Origin: Candidatus Methylomirabilota bacterium
GTDB taxonomy: Bacteria > Methylomirabilota > Methylomirabilia > Methylomirabilales > Methylomirabilaceae
Length of the DNA: 13,460 nucleotides
Direction of reading: 5' to 3'
Assembly (NCBI GenBank): GCA_028869615.1
Contig: JAGWRQ010000040.1
Span: forward strand, 1 to 13,460
The notes beneath the pieces are model-generated. The model was given only the letters and a program-made list of their open reading frames with translations, made no database searches and had not been told where the DNA came from. The position numbers were made by a program, and so were the translations under genes. Below are positions 6,476 to 13,460 of this stretch, piece after piece; the first letter of the stretch is position 1; every line of letters starts with the position of its first letter.

Positions 6476-7069
6476 GTGGTGAAACGGACTGACGCGAAGC
6501 AGGAGTATATTCTTGGGATTACCGGGGCCAGCGGGGCCGTTCTTGGCGTCCGGATGCTGGAGGTACTCCATGCGCTCAGCCTGCCTGTCCACCTGATCGT
6601 GTCCGAAGGGGCAAAGACGACACTTCGAGAAGAAAGCGGACGAACGGTAGAGGATCTCAAGCGCCTCGCGACCTTTTTCCACGACGATCGAGACCTCGGC
6701 GCATCCATCTCGAGCGGCTCCTATGTCTCGCCCAACGTGAGCGCGATGATTGTCGCGCCATGCTCGATGAAGAGCCTGGCGGCCATCGCCACCGGCTACA
6801 CAGAGACCCTGATCGCCCGAGCGGCTGATGTAGTCCTGAAGGAGGGGAAGCATCTTGTGCTTGTGGTGAGGGAGAGCCCCTTTACCGTCATCCATCTGGA
6901 ACAGATGTTGACATTGGCCAGGTCGGGCGTCAGAATCGTTCCGCCAATGCCGCCGTTCTATCAGAAGGCGACAACGGTCGAGGAGTTGGTAGACCAGATC
7001 GTCGGACGGGTGCTGGATCAGATCGGGCTCCACACCGACTTACCGAATCGGTGGCGGGGCGCGGAATAA
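6476..7069 (+). CDS. ubiX: Flavin prenyltransferase UbiX
   Basis: Attaches a dimethylallyl group to FMN to make prenyl-FMN, the cofactor of UbiD-type decarboxylases used in quinone synthesis. The 197 residues match the family length. Motifs are TGASGA (16-21, FMN-binding loop), APCSMKSLAAIATG (94-107), RESPF (132-136) and PPMPPFY (156-162). There are two tandem GTG codons at 6476 and 6479; I use the first, but the second is equally plausible because no strong ribosome binding site separates them. It is the last gene of the tightly packed block. No UbiD is adjacent, so the partner enzyme must be encoded elsewhere. Confidence 0.95.
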   Translation: MVKRTDAKQEYILGITGASGAVLGVRMLEVLHALSLPVHLIVSEGAKTTLREESGRTVEDLKRLATFFHDDRDLGASISSGSYVSPNVSAMIVAPCSMKSLAAIATGYTETLIARAADVVLKEGKHLVLVVRESPFTVIHLEQMLTLARSGVRIVPPMPPFYQKATTVEELVDQIVGRVLDQIGLHTDLPNRWRGAE

Positions 7070-8373: not shown

Positions 8374-8991
8374 ATGTTCAGACTGATCCCACGGGAAGAG
8401 AAGTTCTTCGAGTACTTCGACAAAGCAGCCAATAATATATTGGAAGGCGCAAAAGTCCTCGTGCAGATGACGGATGAGCGCGGCGCGGACTTTCAGGAAC
8501 GATGGAAGCGACTCGAGGAGCTCGAGCACGTGGGAGACAAGCTTACCCACCAGATTATCCGAAAGCTGAATCGGACATTCATTACCCCCATCGACCGCGA
8601 AGACATTCACAGTCTGGCCGTGGCGCTGGATGACGTCATGGACCTGATCGAGGCGTCGGCTGTGCGCATGAGTCTTTACAAGATCAAGCAGCCCACCGAG
8701 GAGGCCGGGAAGCTTGCCCAGGTTATCCTGAAATCGGCGGAGGAGATTGTCAAGGCGGTGTCGAACCTCGAGCGGATGGACGATGTAATGGAGCATTGCA
8801 TCGAGATTAATCGACTGGAGAACATGGCTGATGAGATCAGCCGAGAGGCGATTGCCGACCTTTTTGATAAGGGGCACGACCCGATGGATGTGATTAAGTG
8901 GAAGGAGATTTACGAGACGATGGAGATGACCACCGACGCGTGTGAAGATGTGGCCAACATCGTCGAATCAGTGGCATTGAAGAGCGCCTGA
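8374..8991 (+). CDS. DUF47 family PhoU-like protein (PiT accessory)
   Basis: A 205-residue, all-helical cytoplasmic protein of the DUF47/PhoU-like family. Members are often encoded immediately before a PiT phosphate permease and are thought to regulate it. The family look is clear: the start FRLIPREEKFFEYFDKAANNI, the LEELEHVGDKLTHQIIRKLN helix with TFITPIDREDIHSLA, and the C-terminal EIYETMEMTTDACEDVANIVE with conserved acidic residues that could bind metal. The start codon lacks a strong ribosome binding site. The PiT gene starts 60 bases downstream, consistent with an operon. Confidence 0.93.
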   Translation: MFRLIPREEKFFEYFDKAANNILEGAKVLVQMTDERGADFQERWKRLEELEHVGDKLTHQIIRKLNRTFITPIDREDIHSLAVALDDVMDLIEASAVRMSLYKIKQPTEEAGKLAQVILKSAEEIVKAVSNLERMDDVMEHCIEINRLENMADEISREAIADLFDKGHDPMDVIKWKEIYETMEMTTDACEDVANIVESVALKSA

Positions 8992-9051
8992 TCCCCGTGG
9001 TCCCACTCGTCGAGACCATACCACGTTCTCCCGCCGTATAACAGCCCGCCT

Positions 9052-10047
9052 ATGCTGGGACTTGTTGTTCTGAGTATCTTGATCGCGTTGATCTTCGACT
9101 TCATCAACGGCTTTCACGATGCCGCCAACTCGATCGCGACCGTGGTGTCCACACGCGTGCTCTCGCCGATGCAAGCAGTGATCTGGGCCGCGGTCTTCAA
9201 CTTTGTCGCCGCATTCGGCTTCGGGGTCAGTGTGGCGACGACTATCGGAAAGGGAGTCGTCCAACCTGAGGCGATCAATGAATATGTGATCATGGCCGGC
9301 CTTATCGGCGCCATTGCGTGGGACCTGATCACCTGGCACTATGGCATTCCGAGCAGCTCGTCCCATGCGCTGATCGGGGGGCTGGCCGGGGCTGCGATCG
9401 TCAACGCCGGCATCTCGGCTCTGATCCCCGCTGGCATCTATAAGATCCTCCTATTCATCGTCCTTTCCCCGCTGCTGGGTCTTGTCCTGGGATTCGGGAT
9501 CATGGTGGTCGTCATCTGGGTCTTCTGGCGGGTCCGCCCCAGCCGGGTAGATCGCTGGTTCAGGCGATTGCAGCTTGTCTCGGCCGCGCTGTACAGTCTG
9601 GGACATGGGACCAATGATGCCCAGAAGACGATGGGAATTATCGCGGGCCTTTTGTTCAGCGCGGGCTACCTGGGTAAGGAGTTCTACGTTCCCATCTGGG
9701 TCATTCTGGCGGCCCACGCGGCGATCGGCTTGGGGACCCTGGCCGGCGGCTGGCGTATTGTCAAGACGATGGGGATGCGACTCACGAAGCTCAGGCCGGT
9801 CGGTGGCTTCTGTGCTGAAACTGCGGGAGCCGTGACGCTGATCGGTACCGCCATTGCGGGCATTCCGGTCAGCACCACTCATACCATTACCGGCGCCATT
9901 TCCGGGGTCGGGGCGACCAGCGGCCTTTCGGCGGTGCGGTGGGGAGTGGCTAGACAGATCGTCTGGGCCTGGATCCTCACCATTCCTCTCTCTGCTGCCA
10001 TCGCCGCTGCCTCATTTTCCCTGATCAAACTCTACCTACGTTTCTAG
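9052..10047 (+). CDS. PiT-family inorganic phosphate transporter
   Basis: Inner-membrane low-affinity phosphate permease, probably carrying metal-phosphate complexes in symport with H+ or Na+. The 331 residues with about ten hydrophobic segments match short bacterial PiT proteins. Both PiT signature repeats are intact: GFHDAANSIATVVSTR (20-35) and GHGTNDAQKTMG (184-195). The inverted-repeat companions IPSSSSHALIGG (about 99-110) and IPVSTTHTITGA (about 270-281) are also present. It pairs with the upstream DUF47 gene. The ATG has no obvious Shine-Dalgarno. Because PiT proteins carry neutral metal-phosphate (including Mg-phosphate), its proximity to the Mg2+-regulated genes downstream may be relevant, but that is inference. 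Confidence 0.95.
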   Translation: MLGLVVLSILIALIFDFINGFHDAANSIATVVSTRVLSPMQAVIWAAVFNFVAAFGFGVSVATTIGKGVVQPEAINEYVIMAGLIGAIAWDLITWHYGIPSSSSHALIGGLAGAAIVNAGISALIPAGIYKILLFIVLSPLLGLVLGFGIMVVVIWVFWRVRPSRVDRWFRRLQLVSAALYSLGHGTNDAQKTMGIIAGLLFSAGYLGKEFYVPIWVILAAHAAIGLGTLAGGWRIVKTMGMRLTKLRPVGGFCAETAGAVTLIGTAIAGIPVSTTHTITGAISGVGATSGLSAVRWGVARQIVWAWILTIPLSAAIAAASFSLIKLYLRF

Positions 10048-10096
10048 ATTTGCCGTGGCGTGAACCGAATGCCCCTGACCTGACGTTAGGTATGGT

Positions 10097-10729
10097 ATGT
10101 TCGGACTCTCTCCGCAAGAACTGCAATCCTTCATGGCCCCCTATGTGGCCCACTGGGGATACCTGTTCATCGGCGTGACGGTCGTGCTCGGTAACATTGG
10201 GTTGCCGGTCCCTGAGGAGACGATCTTATTGGTAGGGGGCTATCTTGCGGCGAAGGGGATGCTGAGCCTCTGGGGGCTGATCCCGACGGCGATTGTAAGC
10301 GCCACCGGGGGGGATAGTCTTGGGTATTGGCTTGGGAGTCGGGCCGGGCGACGGCTCCTCCTGCAGTATGGAGTGGCCTTGGGGGTTACGCGCCAGCGAC
10401 TCTTCGTGGCCGAGCAGTTTTTCGGGCGATACGGTCCCTGGACGGTCTTCCTGGCTCGCTTCATCGGCGGCCTCAGGTTCATGGCAGGGCCCCTGGCGGG
10501 AGCACTCCGCATGCCCTTTTATCGCTTTCTCCGCTACAACCTGACTGGTGCAGTAGTATACTGCTCTACAATGATCTACATTGCGTATTTTTCGGCCCCT
10601 TTCTTCGATCGGGTGGTCCACCTCGTTGCTATGGCAAACTGGATGCTGGCCCTCCTTGTACTCTTGATGGCACTAGGTTTCGTTGGCTGGTGGCTGTGGC
10701 GTGTCCAGATCCAGCAGGACAAGAGCTGA
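10097..10729 (+). CDS. DedA/VTT-domain inner-membrane protein
   Basis: A 210-residue polytopic protein of the DedA (SNARE-associated/VTT) superfamily, whose members include undecaprenyl-phosphate or phospholipid flippases. Motifs are the re-entrant-loop sequence NIGLPVPEET (33-42), GDSLGYWLGSRAG (72-84) and FLARFIGGLRFMAGPLAG (118-135). The last contains the family's conserved arginines. The C-terminus has one more helix (about 180-202) and a short polar tail. The start ATG at 10097 gives the usual short amphipathic N-terminus; an ATG at 10092 is out of frame. An imperfect palindrome (ACCTGACGTTAGGT, about 10078-10091) lies just upstream. Substrate is not assignable from sequence. Confidence 0.92.
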   Translation: MFGLSPQELQSFMAPYVAHWGYLFIGVTVVLGNIGLPVPEETILLVGGYLAAKGMLSLWGLIPTAIVSATGGDSLGYWLGSRAGRRLLLQYGVALGVTRQRLFVAEQFFGRYGPWTVFLARFIGGLRFMAGPLAGALRMPFYRFLRYNLTGAVVYCSTMIYIAYFSAPFFDRVVHLVAMANWMLALLVLLMALGFVGWWLWRVQIQQDKS

Positions 10730-10762
10730 GTCGAATTCGCCGTGGCTAGATGTCGCCGCTGT

Positions 10763-10872
10763 TTACCGCGCCTCCGGGACTGGCCGTTCGCGACGCTCCT
10801 GCCGCCGCGCCAGCAGGGTGTAGATAGCCGACAGCACCAGCAGTGTGAGCGCCGTTGACGAGATCAGACTTT
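10763..10872 (-). pseudogene. 3'-end remnant of an RND (CzcA/AcrB-type) efflux pump gene, copy A
   Basis: On the minus strand, the frame from 10870 to the TAA at 10765-10763 encodes 35 residues beginning SLISSTALTLLVLSAIYTLL and ending in an Arg/Glu-rich tail (RRQERRER). This is the pattern of the last transmembrane helix and cytosolic tail of RND permeases, where GGLxSSTxLTLLVLPxxY is typical. There is no start codon and nothing RND-like further upstream in any frame, so it is a truncated remnant. It converges with dedA. Its inner 36 bases (10837-10872) are identical to those in copy B at 12963-12998. Confidence 0.7.
10837..10872 (+). repeat. Direct repeat, copy A (36 bp identical core)
   Basis: The 36 bases ending in CAGACTTT are identical to 12963-12998 in the same orientation. 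Similarity continues leftward at a lower level for about 60 more bases, to about 10780. On the right it stops abruptly: copy A continues into a T-run and the TTGACA of a putative promoter, and copy B into GGGGTTGC. The core is the inner edge of the RND gene remnant. Confidence 0.9.
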
Positions 10873-10877
10873 TTTTC

Positions 10878-10907
10878 TTGACACATCTGATGCTCCCCAC
10901 CTATCTT
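10878..10907 (+). promoter_or_regulatory. Putative sigma70-type promoter for the M-box transcript
   Basis: A consensus TTGACA (10878-10883) is followed after 18 bases by TATCTT (10902-10907), predicting a transcript start near 10914, about 50 bases upstream of the M-box aptamer. It lies only six bases after the edge of the RND remnant. The -35 is perfect, the -10 matches moderately, and the spacing is acceptable. Confidence 0.6.
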
Positions 10908-10961
10908 GTCCCCAAGATGATCGACCGTAATACAGGAGGTCGGCATCGGATAATCGAATCG

Positions 10962-11130
10962 GTTCCTCGATAGGTGAGGCTCCCGCGCAACACACAGGCC
11001 ACTGCCCCAAAGCGTCCAGAGACGCGTGATGGCGGGGTAGAACAGGGATTCCCGGATTAAGGGTCTCTCTAAGGTGGCTGAGACGGAAACGCCTCTGACG
11101 GGGCGCGGAGTTGAAGCTTGAGCGAGTGGG
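10962..11130 (+). ncRNA. M-box (ykoK leader) Mg2+ riboswitch aptamer
   Basis: The region reproduces the conserved blocks of the ykoK/M-box class in the right order. First comes TAGGTGAGGCTCCC (10971-10984), the near-invariant 5' block. Then come CACTGCCCCAAA (about 10990-11001), GCGTCCAGAGACGC (11002-11015, a hairpin corresponding to the GUCCAAAGAC block), GATGG...GGGTAGAACAGGG, GGATTAAGGG (11054-11063), and GAAGCTTGAGCGAG (11113-11126). The closing stem can form between CTCG (10966-10969) and CGAG (11123-11126). M-boxes sense Mg2+ directly and usually repress Mg2+ transporter genes when Mg2+ is plentiful. Here it precedes a terminator, a porin gene and then an MgtA-type ATPase, which fits that role. 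Exact ends are by eye. Confidence 0.88.
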
Positions 11131-11132
11131 GC

Positions 11133-11193
11133 AAAGGGTTGGCCGATCATCAGCGTGATGACGCACCGACCTGGGACAGATGGTGCGCCCTTT
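11133..11193 (+). promoter_or_regulatory. Candidate antiterminator of the M-box expression platform
   Basis: AAAGGGT at 11133-11139 can pair with GCCCTTT at 11187-11193, the left arm of the terminator, giving 7 pairs including one G-U. Between them sits a perfect 6-bp hairpin, TCATCA-GCG-TGATGA (11147-11161), that would bring the two arms together. Formation of this structure would prevent the terminator, as expected for the low-Mg2+ state. This is inference from pairing by eye. Confidence 0.5.
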
Positions 11194-11222
11194 CTCCGCT
11201 TTGGGGAAAGGGCTTTGCTTTT
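11187..11222 (+). terminator. Intrinsic terminator of the M-box expression platform
   Basis: An 11-bp stem with one G-U pair forms between GCCCTTTCTCC (11187-11197) and GGGGAAAGGGC (11203-11213), with a GCTTT loop. It is followed directly by the T-rich stretch TTTGCTTTT (11214-11222). It lies about 60 bases after the aptamer, the usual place for a Mg2+-induced terminator that would cut off transcription before the porin gene. Confidence 0.85.
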
Positions 11223-11256
11223 CCCCCGCGACTGAACCCTTTGGAGAGGGGACGAC

Positions 11257-11331
11257 ATGGATAGCAGTACTAGTCAGCCTCCACTGGGAGGCTGCTCCCG
11301 TACCGGGAGCGTGGAAGCCGCTAGCCGATAG
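11257..11331 (+). CDS. Possible short leader ORF (24 aa)
   Basis: After the terminator, GGAGAGGGG (11243-11251) precedes an ATG at 11257 that opens a 24-residue frame containing a Pro-Pro pair (MDSSTSQPPLGG...) and ends in TAG. I do not recognise it. Its second half is occupied by two perfect tandem hairpins. It could be a regulatory leader peptide or a chance ORF. In enteric bacteria, mgtA leaders encode short proline-containing peptides, but no sequence likeness to those is visible. Confidence 0.25.
   Translation: MDSSTSQPPLGGCSRTGSVEAASR
11275..11310 (+). repeat. Two tandem perfect hairpins in the porin leader
   Basis: Hairpin 1 pairs CAGCCTCC (11275-11282) with GGAGGCTG (11287-11294) around an ACTG loop. 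Hairpin 2 pairs GCTCCCG (11294-11300) with CGGGAGC (11304-11310) around a TAC loop. They share one base at the junction. Neither is followed by a T-run, so they are unlikely to be terminators. Confidence 0.75.
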
Positions 11332-11397
11332 GCGTTCACTCCTCTTATCTCTCGCCTCACGCTTCGCGTCCTGCATGCCCCCGGCGTGGCAGATGTG

Positions 11398-11435
11398 AAG
11401 GGTGAAGGCGGGTTACCCGCCGGGTTTTCATCCTT
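11398..11435 (+). terminator. Second hairpin, possible terminator, in the porin leader
   Basis: GGCGGG (11407-11412) pairs with CCCGCC (11416-11421) around TTA and is followed by GGG and TTTT (11425-11428), like a weak intrinsic terminator. Alternatively, AAGGGTGAA (11398-11406) can pair with TTCATCCTT (11427-11435) to extend the same hairpin with a five-base bulge, which would sequester the T-run. The two forms could be alternatives. The remaining 11436-11560 shows no further recognisable feature. Confidence 0.45.
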
Positions 11436-11568
11436 TCCCTGCAGCATCTTTCAGGTTGTCGCGGCGCTCTTTGCCTACCAGTCTATTCATCTGGCTGGAT
11501 TCTTCGAGTAAGCGAGGGAGAGGCCGAGCGTTGTTGGGCCGGACCTGTACAACCAACCTCGAGGGGAC

Positions 11569-12882
11569 ATGATCATAGGCCTCCGCAGGACCATCCTGAT
11601 CACATACGCCCTGCTCGCTTGCATCCTGCCGACTCTGGCCTCGGCGTACGAGCAGGATTGGAATTGGCACGTGCAAAACACGGACGTCGTTCAGTGGCAT
11701 CCGCGATTTCCCGCCCGGTTCTCCGGACCGCAGAGTCTGAGTGAGACGAGTGCGGCCGAAGAGACCGTATCAGTAGATGTGTACGGGGGAATTCGGGTAT
11801 GGGACGGGGCGGAACTGTACGCGGATGGGCTGATGTGGCATGGGTTTGGCTTGAGCGATACCCACGGGGTGGCCGGCTTCCCGAACGGCGAAGCTTTTCG
11901 GATAGGGACAAACTCTCTTCGTGGGACGCTGGCGCGCATGTTCGTGCGCCACACTATTGGGTTGGGCGGCGAGCGGGAAACCGTCGAGGACGACCAACTC
12001 CAGCTGGCCGGTACGCGGGACATATCGCGGATCACGCTCACGCTGGGGAAGATCAGCGTGAAGGACCTCTTTGATACCAATGCCTACGCCAACGACCCGC
12101 GCACCCAGTTCCTGAATTGGAGCCTGCTGGCGAACGGGGCATGGGATTACCCCGCCGATTCCCTTGGGTACACGATCGGGTTCGCCGCCGAGCTGAATCG
12201 CCCGAACTGGGCAGTGCGGTATGGGATCTTTGAGGTACCGAAGCGCCTCAATGGCGAGGCGTTTGACCGACACCTCCTGAAGGCCTGGTCCATGGTGACG
12301 GAGATCGAGCGCCGCTATGCCGTAGTCGGCCGTCCAGGGACGATCCGGCTGCTTGCGTACCTGACGCGAGCACACATGGGCAGGTATCAGGACGCGCTCA
12401 GCGCCCCCACCAGGCCCGCCGATACCACCCCATTTCGCAGGAACTATCACGGCAAGTACGGCGTCGGCCTGAATATGGACCAGGAGCTCATCGAGGGGGT
12501 CGGGGTATTCATGCGGCTGGGGTGGAGCGATGGGCAGACCGACTCATGGATGTTTACCGATGTGGACCGCACCGCTTCGCTGGGCGCGAGCATTAAGGGA
12601 AGGTTCTGGAGGCGCCACGATGATACCATCGGTGTGGGGGGCGTCTTCAACGGTATTACCGATGTTCACCGGAAATACCTCGCCGCGGGAGGTTTGGGAA
12701 TTCTTGTCGGCGACGGCACGCTGTCGTACGGCTGGGAGCGGCTCCTGGAGGTCTACTATGACGCGGCCCTCTGGAAGCGCCTCCATGCTGCCTTGGACTA
12801 TCAGTTTATCGTGAACCCGGCCTACAACCGCGATCGTGGCCCGGCCTCGGTCTTCGGCATGCGCGTGCACTGGAGCTACTGA
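11569..12882 (+). CDS. OprB-like (carbohydrate-porin family) outer-membrane porin
   Basis: A 437-residue exported protein. The N-terminus has two arginines, a hydrophobic core (TILITYALLACILPTL) and an ASA cleavage site near residue 26, a classical signal peptide. The mature part alternates aromatic/glycine-rich beta strands with polar loops and ends in a short strand (FGMRVHWSY) with a terminal aromatic residue, as in outer-membrane barrels. The segments RITLTLGKISVKDLFDTNAYANDPRTQFLNW, NYHGKYGVGLNMDQEL and the C-terminal YQFIVNPAYNRDRGP resemble the OprB/carbohydrate-selective porin family. GAGGGG lies just before the ATG. It sits between an M-box riboswitch and an mgtA-type gene, so divalent cation passage is more likely here than sugar uptake; that is inference. 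Confidence 0.82.
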   Translation: MIIGLRRTILITYALLACILPTLASAYEQDWNWHVQNTDVVQWHPRFPARFSGPQSLSETSAAEETVSVDVYGGIRVWDGAELYADGLMWHGFGLSDTHGVAGFPNGEAFRIGTNSLRGTLARMFVRHTIGLGGERETVEDDQLQLAGTRDISRITLTLGKISVKDLFDTNAYANDPRTQFLNWSLLANGAWDYPADSLGYTIGFAAELNRPNWAVRYGIFEVPKRLNGEAFDRHLLKAWSMVTEIERRYAVVGRPGTIRLLAYLTRAHMGRYQDALSAPTRPADTTPFRRNYHGKYGVGLNMDQELIEGVGVFMRLGWSDGQTDSWMFTDVDRTASLGASIKGRFWRRHDDTIGVGGVFNGITDVHRKYLAAGGLGILVGDGTLSYGWERLLEVYYDAALWKRLHAALDYQFIVNPAYNRDRGPASVFGMRVHWSY

Positions 12883-12897
12883 TCGGCGCGGCGACCT

Positions 12898-12998
12898 TCA
12901 GCCAGTTTGACGCTCGCGGCGCTCCCGCCACTGCGCTAGCAGGGCGTAGATGGCTGGCAGCGCCAGCAGTGTGAGCGCCGTTGACGAGATCAGACTTT
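12898..12998 (-). pseudogene. 3'-end remnant of an RND efflux pump gene, copy B
   Basis: The minus-strand frame from 12996 to the TGA at 12900-12898 encodes 32 residues: SLISSTALTLLALPAIYALL followed by AQWRERRERQTG. It carries the canonical L-P-A-I-Y of the last RND transmembrane helix, which copy A has changed to L-S-A-I-Y. It has no start and is cut at exactly the same codon as copy A. The tail beyond the helix differs between the copies, as expected for paralogous genes, while the last 36 bases are identical. It converges with the porin gene. Confidence 0.7.
12963..12998 (+). repeat. Direct repeat, copy B (36 bp identical core)
   Basis: Identical to 10837-10872 and in the same orientation. 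The two cores bracket the promoter, M-box, leader and porin gene, a segment of about 2.1 kb. Confidence 0.9.
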
Positions 12999-13160
12999 GG
13001 GGTTGCGGAACAACATCGTACCCCCTGTGACCCTGCCGTCGAATCGGTACATGAACAGCTCGTCGAGGAAGACCGGGGGGAGCGCCGCGACTCGCTTTGT
13101 CTTACCCTGGGACGATTGCATGGCTGGCGTGGGCGCAGGCGCAGGGATGCCGCATCATGG
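12999..13160. other. Leader region between RND remnant B and mgtA
   Basis: This stretch of about 160 bases has no recognised gene, no second M-box, no convincing promoter pair and no intrinsic terminator. Several frames are open across it on both strands, including a minus-strand ATG frame of 43 codons (13121-12990), none recognisable. Together with remnant B it makes up the 294-base gap between porin and mgtA. Confidence 0.4.
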
Positions 13161-13176
13161 AAGGAGGTGAAAACCG

Positions 13177-13460
13177 ATGGCCCGCTTTCCGACATTGGCA
13201 AACATCATCCAGATGAAGCCCAAGCTCCTGTCAGGCAACGGGCGCGGGTTGATGACCTCAAGCGCTGCAGGCGTGTTGCTCCGGTCGTCAGAGGCAGACA
13301 GCTCGTCCGCTCTGCACGCGTTGGAGACGAGTGAGCACGGCCTGACGGAGCGTGAAGTCGCGAATCGTTTGGAGCAGTACGGCAAGAACGAGGTGACCCG
13401 CGAGAGGCCGCCGGCCTGGCACTGGATGCTCCTGCGCAACTTCAAGAACCCGTTCATCGT
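13177..13460 (+). CDS. mgtA: MgtA-type P-type Mg2+-importing ATPase, N-terminal part (3' truncated by window edge)
   Basis: Ninety-four codons are visible, open to the window end. After a basic, weakly conserved N-terminal tail (about 1-45) comes a cation-ATPase N-terminal domain: LHALETSEHGLTEREVANRL, EQYGKNEVTRERPP, then AWHWMLLRNFKNPFI. The W-x-x-x-x-x-x-x-x-NPF ending leading into TM1 is typical of P3B (MgtA/MgtB) ATPases, which import Mg2+ with ATP. The ATG at 13177 has a near-perfect Shine-Dalgarno (AAGGAGGTGA, 13161-13170) at ideal spacing. The catalytic DKTGT and the metal-site helices lie beyond the window, so the Mg2+ assignment rests on the N-terminus plus the upstream M-box. Other P-type cation ATPases are the alternative. 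Confidence 0.85.
   Translation, partial: MARFPTLANIIQMKPKLLSGNGRGLMTSSAAGVLLRSSEADSSSALHALETSEHGLTEREVANRLEQYGKNEVTRERPPAWHWMLLRNFKNPFI

Follow-up and report, generated by a model that had tools for sequence, protein, structure and literature searches.

Organization of the locus

The window analysed here is the whole of a 13,460-nucleotide contig (JAGWRQ010000040.1 of assembly GCA_028869615.1) from a Candidatus Methylomirabilota bacterium, and its 3′ part carries a Mg2+ riboswitch of the M-box class, a gene for an OprB-fold porin and the start of a gene for an MgtA-like ATPase. The window is identical in full to contig C218 of genome bin G000, which comprises 2.06 Mb in 278 contigs and is 99.79% complete. 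The features of the 3′ part are as follows.

10878..10907, + strand: sigma-70-like promoter, TTGACA-18-TATCTT, a consensus match only
10959..11137, + strand: M-box (ykoK leader) Mg2+ riboswitch aptamer, matching Rfam RF00380 over its full length (1-169)
11124..11201, + strand: predicted antiterminator, from the fold of 11111-11203 (-34.1 kcal/mol)
11187..11223, + strand: intrinsic terminator, a hairpin at 11187-11213 with a T-rich tail, from the predicted fold and a pattern scan
11257..11331, + strand: possible 24-codon leader open reading frame (ORF) with a Shine-Dalgarno-like GGAGAGG, from sequence and alignment; ambiguous
11569..12882, + strand: gene for a 437-aa OprB-fold porin from the clade associated with Mg2+ genes, scoring 142.4 bits with Pfam OprB (cut-off 22.9)
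13177..13460, + strand: start of an MgtA/MgtB-like (P3B) ATPase gene, ended by the contig edge, from Pfam Cation_ATPase_N, NCBIfam and comparison with P-type ATPases

The initial annotation had placed a promoter, an M-box, a terminator, an OprB-like porin and a P3B ATPase start in this order on the + strand, and RF00380, Pfam, NCBIfam and the scans bear out that order. The ykoK-leader search on which the annotation had made its case depend gave a strong match (111.0 bits against a gathering score of 44, E 1.4e-24), which was the only match in the window at the gathering score. A chance M-box was considered and is ruled out by this E value. One promoter-like pattern was found, compared with a mean of 0.4 in shuffled sequences.

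The terminator-like hairpin at 11187-11213 has a predicted energy of -20.2 kcal/mol and is followed by TTTGCTTTTC. By itself, the terminator scan did not exceed chance (2 sites, compared with a shuffle mean of 1.7); a comparable hairpin begins 21-51 nt 3′ of all 11 M-boxes examined, the window's included, a count made without a shuffle control. In the predicted antiterminator, the 3′ strand of aptamer P1 together with AAAGGG (~11124-11138) forms base pairs with the terminator's 5′ half (~11188-11201). The terminator and the antiterminator are mutually exclusive in the predicted folds, and the alternative fold is that of an OFF-switch layout.

The possible leader ORF follows the M-box terminator and precedes the porin. 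Its counterpart in G032, a genome of the same genus, is similar and partly conserved, with TSQPPLGG in common in the alignment; the conservation of 11257-11331 may reflect a small ORF or else conserved hairpins. A further terminator-like hairpin, GGCGGGTTACCCGCC then GGGTTTTCAT, is located at 11407-11421, between the leader and the porin.

For the ATPase fragment, NCBIfam returned two matches, both to Mg2+ P-type ATPase models and both far below the whole-length cut-offs because only the N-terminus is present: TIGR01524, for example, gives 37.8 bits from 94 codons, compared with a whole-protein cut-off of 610.75. All ten MgtA proteins scored the fragment better than did all nine other P-type ATPases of the genus.

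The porin and its clade

The N-terminus of the porin is signal-peptide-like (read by eye), and PF04966 is its only Pfam content. A structure model from 102 sequences, which superseded a 20-sequence model (pLDDT 60.9), reached a pLDDT of 93.6 and predicts the OprB fold with 16 long strands. Its alignment took in 45 of 120 listed proteins and 57 of the 67 listed loci described below; left out were L043 (internal stop), L063, L069, L080, L081, L084, L102, L105, L107, and L108. Sequence searches of the PDB with the porin gave no match, and its identity to the OprB structure 4gey is 18%. The window porin shares its Pfam family and fold with the OprB carbohydrate porin (PF04966, 4gey), from which it differs in this low identity and in a setting of Mg2+ uptake rather than sugar use. 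An ordinary sugar porin was considered, and the OprB fold is compatible with one. In a Limisphaerales genome, a porin gene of the clade contains an internal stop codon (L043 and G101:C449, L116).

A porin-alignment scan of the GTDB species genomes yielded at least 67 porin loci, and further loci exist; the 67 that are listed are partly non-independent, with two pairs of genomes that each share an isolate name, and many are short contigs. All 67 were scanned for M-boxes with Rfam, which was used in place of a hand-written M-box pattern that was discarded, its first form having missed 3 of 3 known M-boxes and its second form L005.

M-box-porin operons in Acidobacteriota

Among the 67 listed loci, the Rfam M-box was found at L071 only. 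This acidobacterial locus has two M-boxes, one (6568-6741) before the porin and the other (8442-8615) before genes for an MgtE_N/CBS protein and an Nramp-related transporter of the NRMT type. A search of the genome of L068 revealed a second porin, which stands in the row M-box, porin, MgtE_N/CBS, NRMT.

In the Acidobacteriota class to which the L068 genome belongs, a relative of this second porin at E <= 1e-50 is present in 214 of 399 genomes. The best 30 loci of the class, including L071 and the second porin of the L068 genome, were checked for neighbours, and 22 of them have Rfam M-box data. An M-box was found at 7 of these 22, directly before the porin in six genomes (G099, G095, G1216, G1196, G1219, and G1225) and between the porin and the CBS gene in G1228. 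The MgtE_N/CBS and NRMT genes follow the porin in five of the six (G099, G095, G1216, G1196, and G1219), with a second M-box intervening in G095. Longer stretches confirm the order M-box, porin, CBS, NRMT in G1216, G1196, and G1219; the stretch of G1225 ends at a contig edge. These operons are of the kind, with an M-box upstream of a porin, for which the initial annotation had proposed a survey. A CBS gene or a gene with NRMT as its best profile lies within 1.5 kb of the porin in 10 of the 30 loci, with L174, L176, and L188 counted on the profile score, and neither gene in the other 20. In G1228 (L196, 3375-7753), the M-box and CBS gene are followed by two tandem NRMT-like genes with the helix-1 motifs DNDAGGV and DNDSGGI.

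In general surveys, an M-box was detected in 3 of 95 genomes of the window's phylum and in 2 of 396 from Acidobacteriota, where few candidates were scored in each genome. Both counts are lower bounds, because stricter filters were applied in both surveys and because another draw revealed M-boxes at a further five Acidobacteriota loci. A porin of the window's kind is present in 3 of the 95 genomes of the phylum, one of the three being weak and split in two.

Mg2+-related genes near porins of the clade

By local profiles, Mg2+-related genes (mgtA, mgtE, mgtC, or NRMT-like) lie near the porin in 17 of the 67 listed loci, and 15 of these 17 hold mgtA, mgtE, or mgtC. The most frequent is mgtA, present in 12 loci (L045, L048, L050, L051, L052, L072, L075, L090, L091, L096, L099, and L102); it adjoins the porin in 11 of them, divergently in L045 and L048, and is ~5 kb off in L072. 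The others are mgtC in five loci (L068, L072, L082, where it is ~5 kb away, L090, and L096), an NRMT-like gene in four (L055, L071, L072, and L082) and mgtE in one (L046), with Pfam confirming the mgtE gene and all five mgtC genes.

All ten full or near-full neighbour ATPases are of the Mg2+ type, scoring 851.6-1299.3 bits (NCBIfam) and so above the TIGR01524 cut-off of 610.75 bits. The partial ATPase gene of L118 (714.4 bits) also exceeds the MgtA cut-off; those of L050 (112.1 bits) and L072 (559.4 bits) fall under it, and Mg2+ models are their best matches. By rough arithmetic, chance would place mgtA within 7 kb of the porin in well under 1 of the 67 loci. As a control, ten of ten OprB porins of the window's class that lie outside the clade were without these genes within 1.5 kb.

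In addition, mgtA was found in 101 of 300 Burkholderiales genomes, and among the 30 best-scoring mgtA loci of these the porin adjoins mgtA in five (four near full length and one remnant) and mgtC occurs in two. Of 288 Verrucomicrobiota genomes sampled, five hold the porin at E <= 1e-60, and one of these has mgtA next to it. The porin-mgtA neighbourhood, whose conservation the initial annotation had left to be surveyed, therefore recurs in Verrucomicrobiota, Bacteroidota, and Burkholderiales. Two of the Bacteroidota loci, from Sediminibacterium magnilacihabitans DSM 22423 (L090, 3319-8344) and Ferruginibacter (L096, 2778-7964), have mgtC, mgtA, and the porin in the same direction, and a Verrucomicrobiia contig (L072, 1-8284) brings the porin together with mgtC, an NRMT-like gene, and a partial mgtA in 8.3 kb.

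A quick tree of 67 porins was computed without L105, L084, L107, and L108 (<250 aa). Its labels predate some of the mgtA finds, so that L050 is marked as lacking a Mg2+ gene and L072 as having NRMT and MgtC only. On this tree, at least six changes of the MgtA label are needed at starred branches, and the label shows no clustering beyond that of chance, with as low a count in 220 of 500 shuffles; the M-box porins form two separate groups. The scatter of the label changes indicates that the link arose or vanished many times, and the tree is silent on which.

Probable loss of an Nramp-family gene from the window

In G032, the M-box is followed by an Nramp-family gene and then by a porin with 89% identity to that of the window. 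Comparison with this arrangement added three features.

11449..11472, + strand: junction lacking ~1.7 kb, the Nramp-family gene of G032, from blastn blocks 8533-11448 and 11473-12990 against L004
10784..10870, - strand: relic matching the 3′ end of a cusA-like gene and lying upstream of the promoter; tblastn gives 86% over 29 aa to the intact copy on contig C241
12904..12996, - strand: a further relic of this 3′ end, lying between the porin and mgtA (81% over 31 aa)

Both flanks of the deletion are collinear with G032, at 84% and 87%, and no close copy of the G032 Nramp gene was found in G000. The porin is first in the window because the Nramp-family gene of G032 is missing, and the earlier statement that it is the first gene after the switch holds for the window and not for the layout of G032.

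The G032 Nramp finds its best PDB match in 7qia (E 8e-52), which PMC8806188 names; its best MntH match has E 2.5e-20. The criteria given there for an NRMT are replacement of the metal-binding helix-6 Met by Ala and of the helix-1 Asn by Gly (PMC8806188). In the G032 protein, Ala replaces the helix-6 Met (TTIAPW), and Ala, not Gly, replaces the helix-1 Asn, for which reason it is termed NRMT-like rather than NRMT. The helix-6 motif is TTIAPW also in L071, L115, L114, and L082, TTVAPW in L072, and TTITPW, with Thr, in G006 and L055. At the helix-1 Asn site, read by eye, Gly is found in L071, L115, L114, G006, L055, and L072, and Ala in G032 and L082. These comparisons suggest that the window switch probably came from an operon of an NRMT-like gene and the porin, lost the Nramp, and now precedes the porin and mgtA.

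The cusA-like gene is intact and convergent with the porin in G032, and the window retains its last 31 codons before mgtA. The two relics flank the M-box-porin segment and have an identical outer edge, which suggests unequal recombination or tandem duplication. A second porin of G000, 90% identical to the first, begins at codon 3 on the edge of contig C241 (L012, 1-1308) and is followed by the intact convergent cusA-like gene. This porin might lie beyond the mgtA of the window, or might be contamination.

A proposed route for Mg2+ across both membranes

We consider it likely that the window locus is a Mg2+-starvation operon serving both membranes, in which the porin raises the entry of divalent cations, chiefly Mg2+, for an inner-membrane importer. 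At high cytoplasmic Mg2+, the M-box would fold, P1 would withhold the antiterminator strand, and transcription would end at 11187-11213; the Mg2+-dependent direction of this repression is deduced from the layout of the switch. As Mg2+ falls, the antiterminator would form and RNA polymerase would continue into the porin. Read-through from the porin into mgtA is probable, since a pattern scan found no terminator-like site between the porin and the ATPase. The porin barrel, whose permeability to Mg2+ is suggested by its genomic setting, would then increase the entry of divalent cations, chiefly Mg2+, into the periplasm, and a high-affinity inner-membrane importer, MgtA-like here and NRMT-like in relatives, would thereby not be starved by the outer membrane, which would be the benefit to the cell.

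Several observations weigh against this reading. The mgtA claim rests on the 94 codons of the fragment; no remainder of this gene was found in G000, none of 15 genomes of the genus has an ATPase above the MgtA cut-off, and the contamination of the bin is 7.85%. The earlier proposal of a Mg2+-regulated porin working with MgtA is supported by the M-box and the recurrent mgtA neighbours, and is weakened at its mgtA end by the short fragment and by the lack of an ATPase above the MgtA cut-off in those 15 genomes. Nor need MgtA be the only importer, because G000 keeps another Nramp-family gene, on contig C271, with 35% identity to that of G032, whose relatives in G022 and G011 have TTIAPW and, on helix 1, DQDAG. 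M-box operons with CBS and Nramp genes also occur without a porin: in G373, the M-box is followed by the CBS and Nramp genes, and in G006, of the same order as the window, by an Nramp-family gene with Thr for Met and a gene for an MgtE_N/CBS/PRC protein.

The contamination and the 278 contigs, the contig-edge start of the C241 porin at codon 3, the lack of an Nramp in the window, and its end inside an mgtA of which nothing more was found would all fit an assembly or binning chimera, with M-box, Nramp, porin as in G032 for the true order. We regard such a chimera as quite unlikely, given that the deletion flanks are collinear with G032 at 84-87% and that no close copy of the G032 Nramp was found in G000. 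As the M-box-porin and mgtA-porin pairs occur independently elsewhere, the general claim stands even if the window is chimeric.

For the clade as a whole, none of the tested metal-transport genes is present at 46 of the 67 listed loci, and the comparison of 17 of 67 with 0 of 10 controls gives a one-sided p of ~0.07 by hand arithmetic, which is not significant alone in so small a sample. Many of the nearest relatives carry the JGI name 'high affinity Mn2+ porin', and four of the listed loci (L054, L057, L059, and L060) have beside the porin a canonical Mn2+/Fe2+-type Nramp with DPGN and MPH motifs. These four loci are from Verrucomicrobiota, and their MntH-type neighbours are perhaps a Mn2+ version of the pairing. 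Such observations favour a porin for Mn2+ or for transition metals in general, of the MnoP kind, whose link to Mg2+ genes would be cross-talk, as NRMT-type transporters also carry Mn2+ and limitation for Mg2+ and for Mn2+ may coincide. Consistent with this, the transporter of PMC8806188 carries both Mg2+ and Mn2+, the Acidobacterium capsulatum NrmT, which has no riboswitch, was mainly a Mn2+ transporter in B. subtilis (PMC4072509), and the porin frame of Bradyrhizobium BTAi1 has ~700 codons, near the 675 aa of MnoP. The window porin, however, has 437 aa and no counterpart of the N-terminal MnoP domain, Mg2+ is the ion to which M-boxes respond (PMC4072509), and 15 of the 17 Mg2+-linked loci hold mgtA, mgtE, or mgtC. 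A Mn2+ porin therefore appears unlikely to us. The earlier suspicion that the family label misleads is upheld in that the carbohydrate label is questioned, and was incomplete in that the nearest named relatives are called Mn2+ porins.

General porins already pass Mg2+, so that a dedicated Mg2+ porin is not obviously needed, a point that favours reinforcement of the envelope as the function: the barrel would be induced when Mg2+ stops bridging lipopolysaccharide, and its channel would be incidental. OprH is said to stabilise the outer membrane likewise, and control by a Mg2+ riboswitch fits this function equally well. We hold it to be improbable, and still more so that the porin admits an organic ligand or a counter-ion, such as a Mg2+-organic acid complex, in the manner of the OprB relatives that carry sugars or acids. 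The OprB fold would suit such a ligand, as would the lactate-, kinase-, or TRAP-type genes that adjoin the distant porin relatives L076-L081 and L083 (N-termini read by eye), which also speak against the proposed Mg2+ route, and the amino-acid permease-like gene (read by eye) after NRMT in L115. Inspection by eye of L004, L071, and L115, from the M-box to the last of the porin, CBS, and Nramp genes and without a family search of every ORF, revealed no sugar or organic-acid gene.

Returning to the proposed Mg2+ route, a cautious form of it is that the OprB-fold porin clade would serve divalent-metal uptake and that its members behind M-boxes or beside mgtA, mgtE, or mgtC would serve Mg2+. The evidence tips slightly towards a broader form, in which these porins are a novel class of beta-barrel dedicated to Mg2+ uptake, regulated directly by M-boxes in two phyla and elsewhere paired with MgtA, MgtE, MgtC, or NRMT-like proteins, and in which the window exchanged its NRMT-like partner for MgtA under the same switch.

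Relation to known systems

M-boxes have been published before corA, mgtE, mgtA, and Nramp-related genes, and the authors of that study regard the presence of the riboswitch as a helpful indicator of specificity for Mg2+ (PMC4072509). Their M-box-NrmT-MgtE_N operons resemble the present ones in having an M-box before an Nramp-related transporter, often with a protein like the MgtE N-terminal domain, and in switching by an intrinsic terminator; they differ in that a porin is added here, often as the first gene (PMC4072509). The words porin, OprB, and outer membrane are absent from the main text of that paper. MnoP, an alphaproteobacterial high-affinity Mn2+ porin, shares the OprB-like domain and a role in metal uptake, and its function is the one that JGI names for many of these relatives. 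In MnoP, a protein of 675 aa, the OprB-like domain is fused to an N-terminal Brucella-Rhizobium porin domain (PMC4827864), which the window porin, located behind an M-box, lacks. In open-licence literature, searched by titles and abstract openings, with subscription journals mostly outside that scope, no OprB porin linked to an M-box or to mgtA was found. The locus would thus combine a switch and a fold, each already known, in a recurrent pairing for which we have found no description, and the earlier view of it as a candidate for an undescribed system applies to the porin pairing and not to M-boxes upstream of Nramp-related genes, which were already published.

PE/PPE-type proteins act in the mycobacterial outer membrane and belong to a protein family different from the OprB porins. 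In the M-box-pe20-ppe31...mgtC operon of M. tuberculosis, growth at low pH and low Mg2+ requires the PE/PPE proteins, whose genes are co-transcribed with mgtC, and a conserved small ORF lies between the switch and the first gene (PMC12810186). The M. tuberculosis switch acts at the level of translation with Rho-dependent termination (PMC12810186), whereas an intrinsic terminator is predicted in the window. By analogy, the PE20/PPE31-MgtC operon is the closest functional precedent.

Implications for Mg2+ uptake

Uptake of Mg2+ in double-membraned bacteria is usually treated as a problem of the inner membrane, the outer membrane being leaky enough. The present results suggest that some of these bacteria probably open a special outer-membrane route when Mg2+ is short. 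The repeated joining of a porin clade to four kinds of Mg2+-related gene, and its placement under a Mg2+ riboswitch, point to the outer membrane as a possible bottleneck in the uptake of scarce Mg2+, and a named set of genes, partly in cultured strains, is available for testing such a limitation. If this is true, the labels 'carbohydrate-selective' and 'high affinity Mn2+ porin' would be corrected for part of a widespread family.

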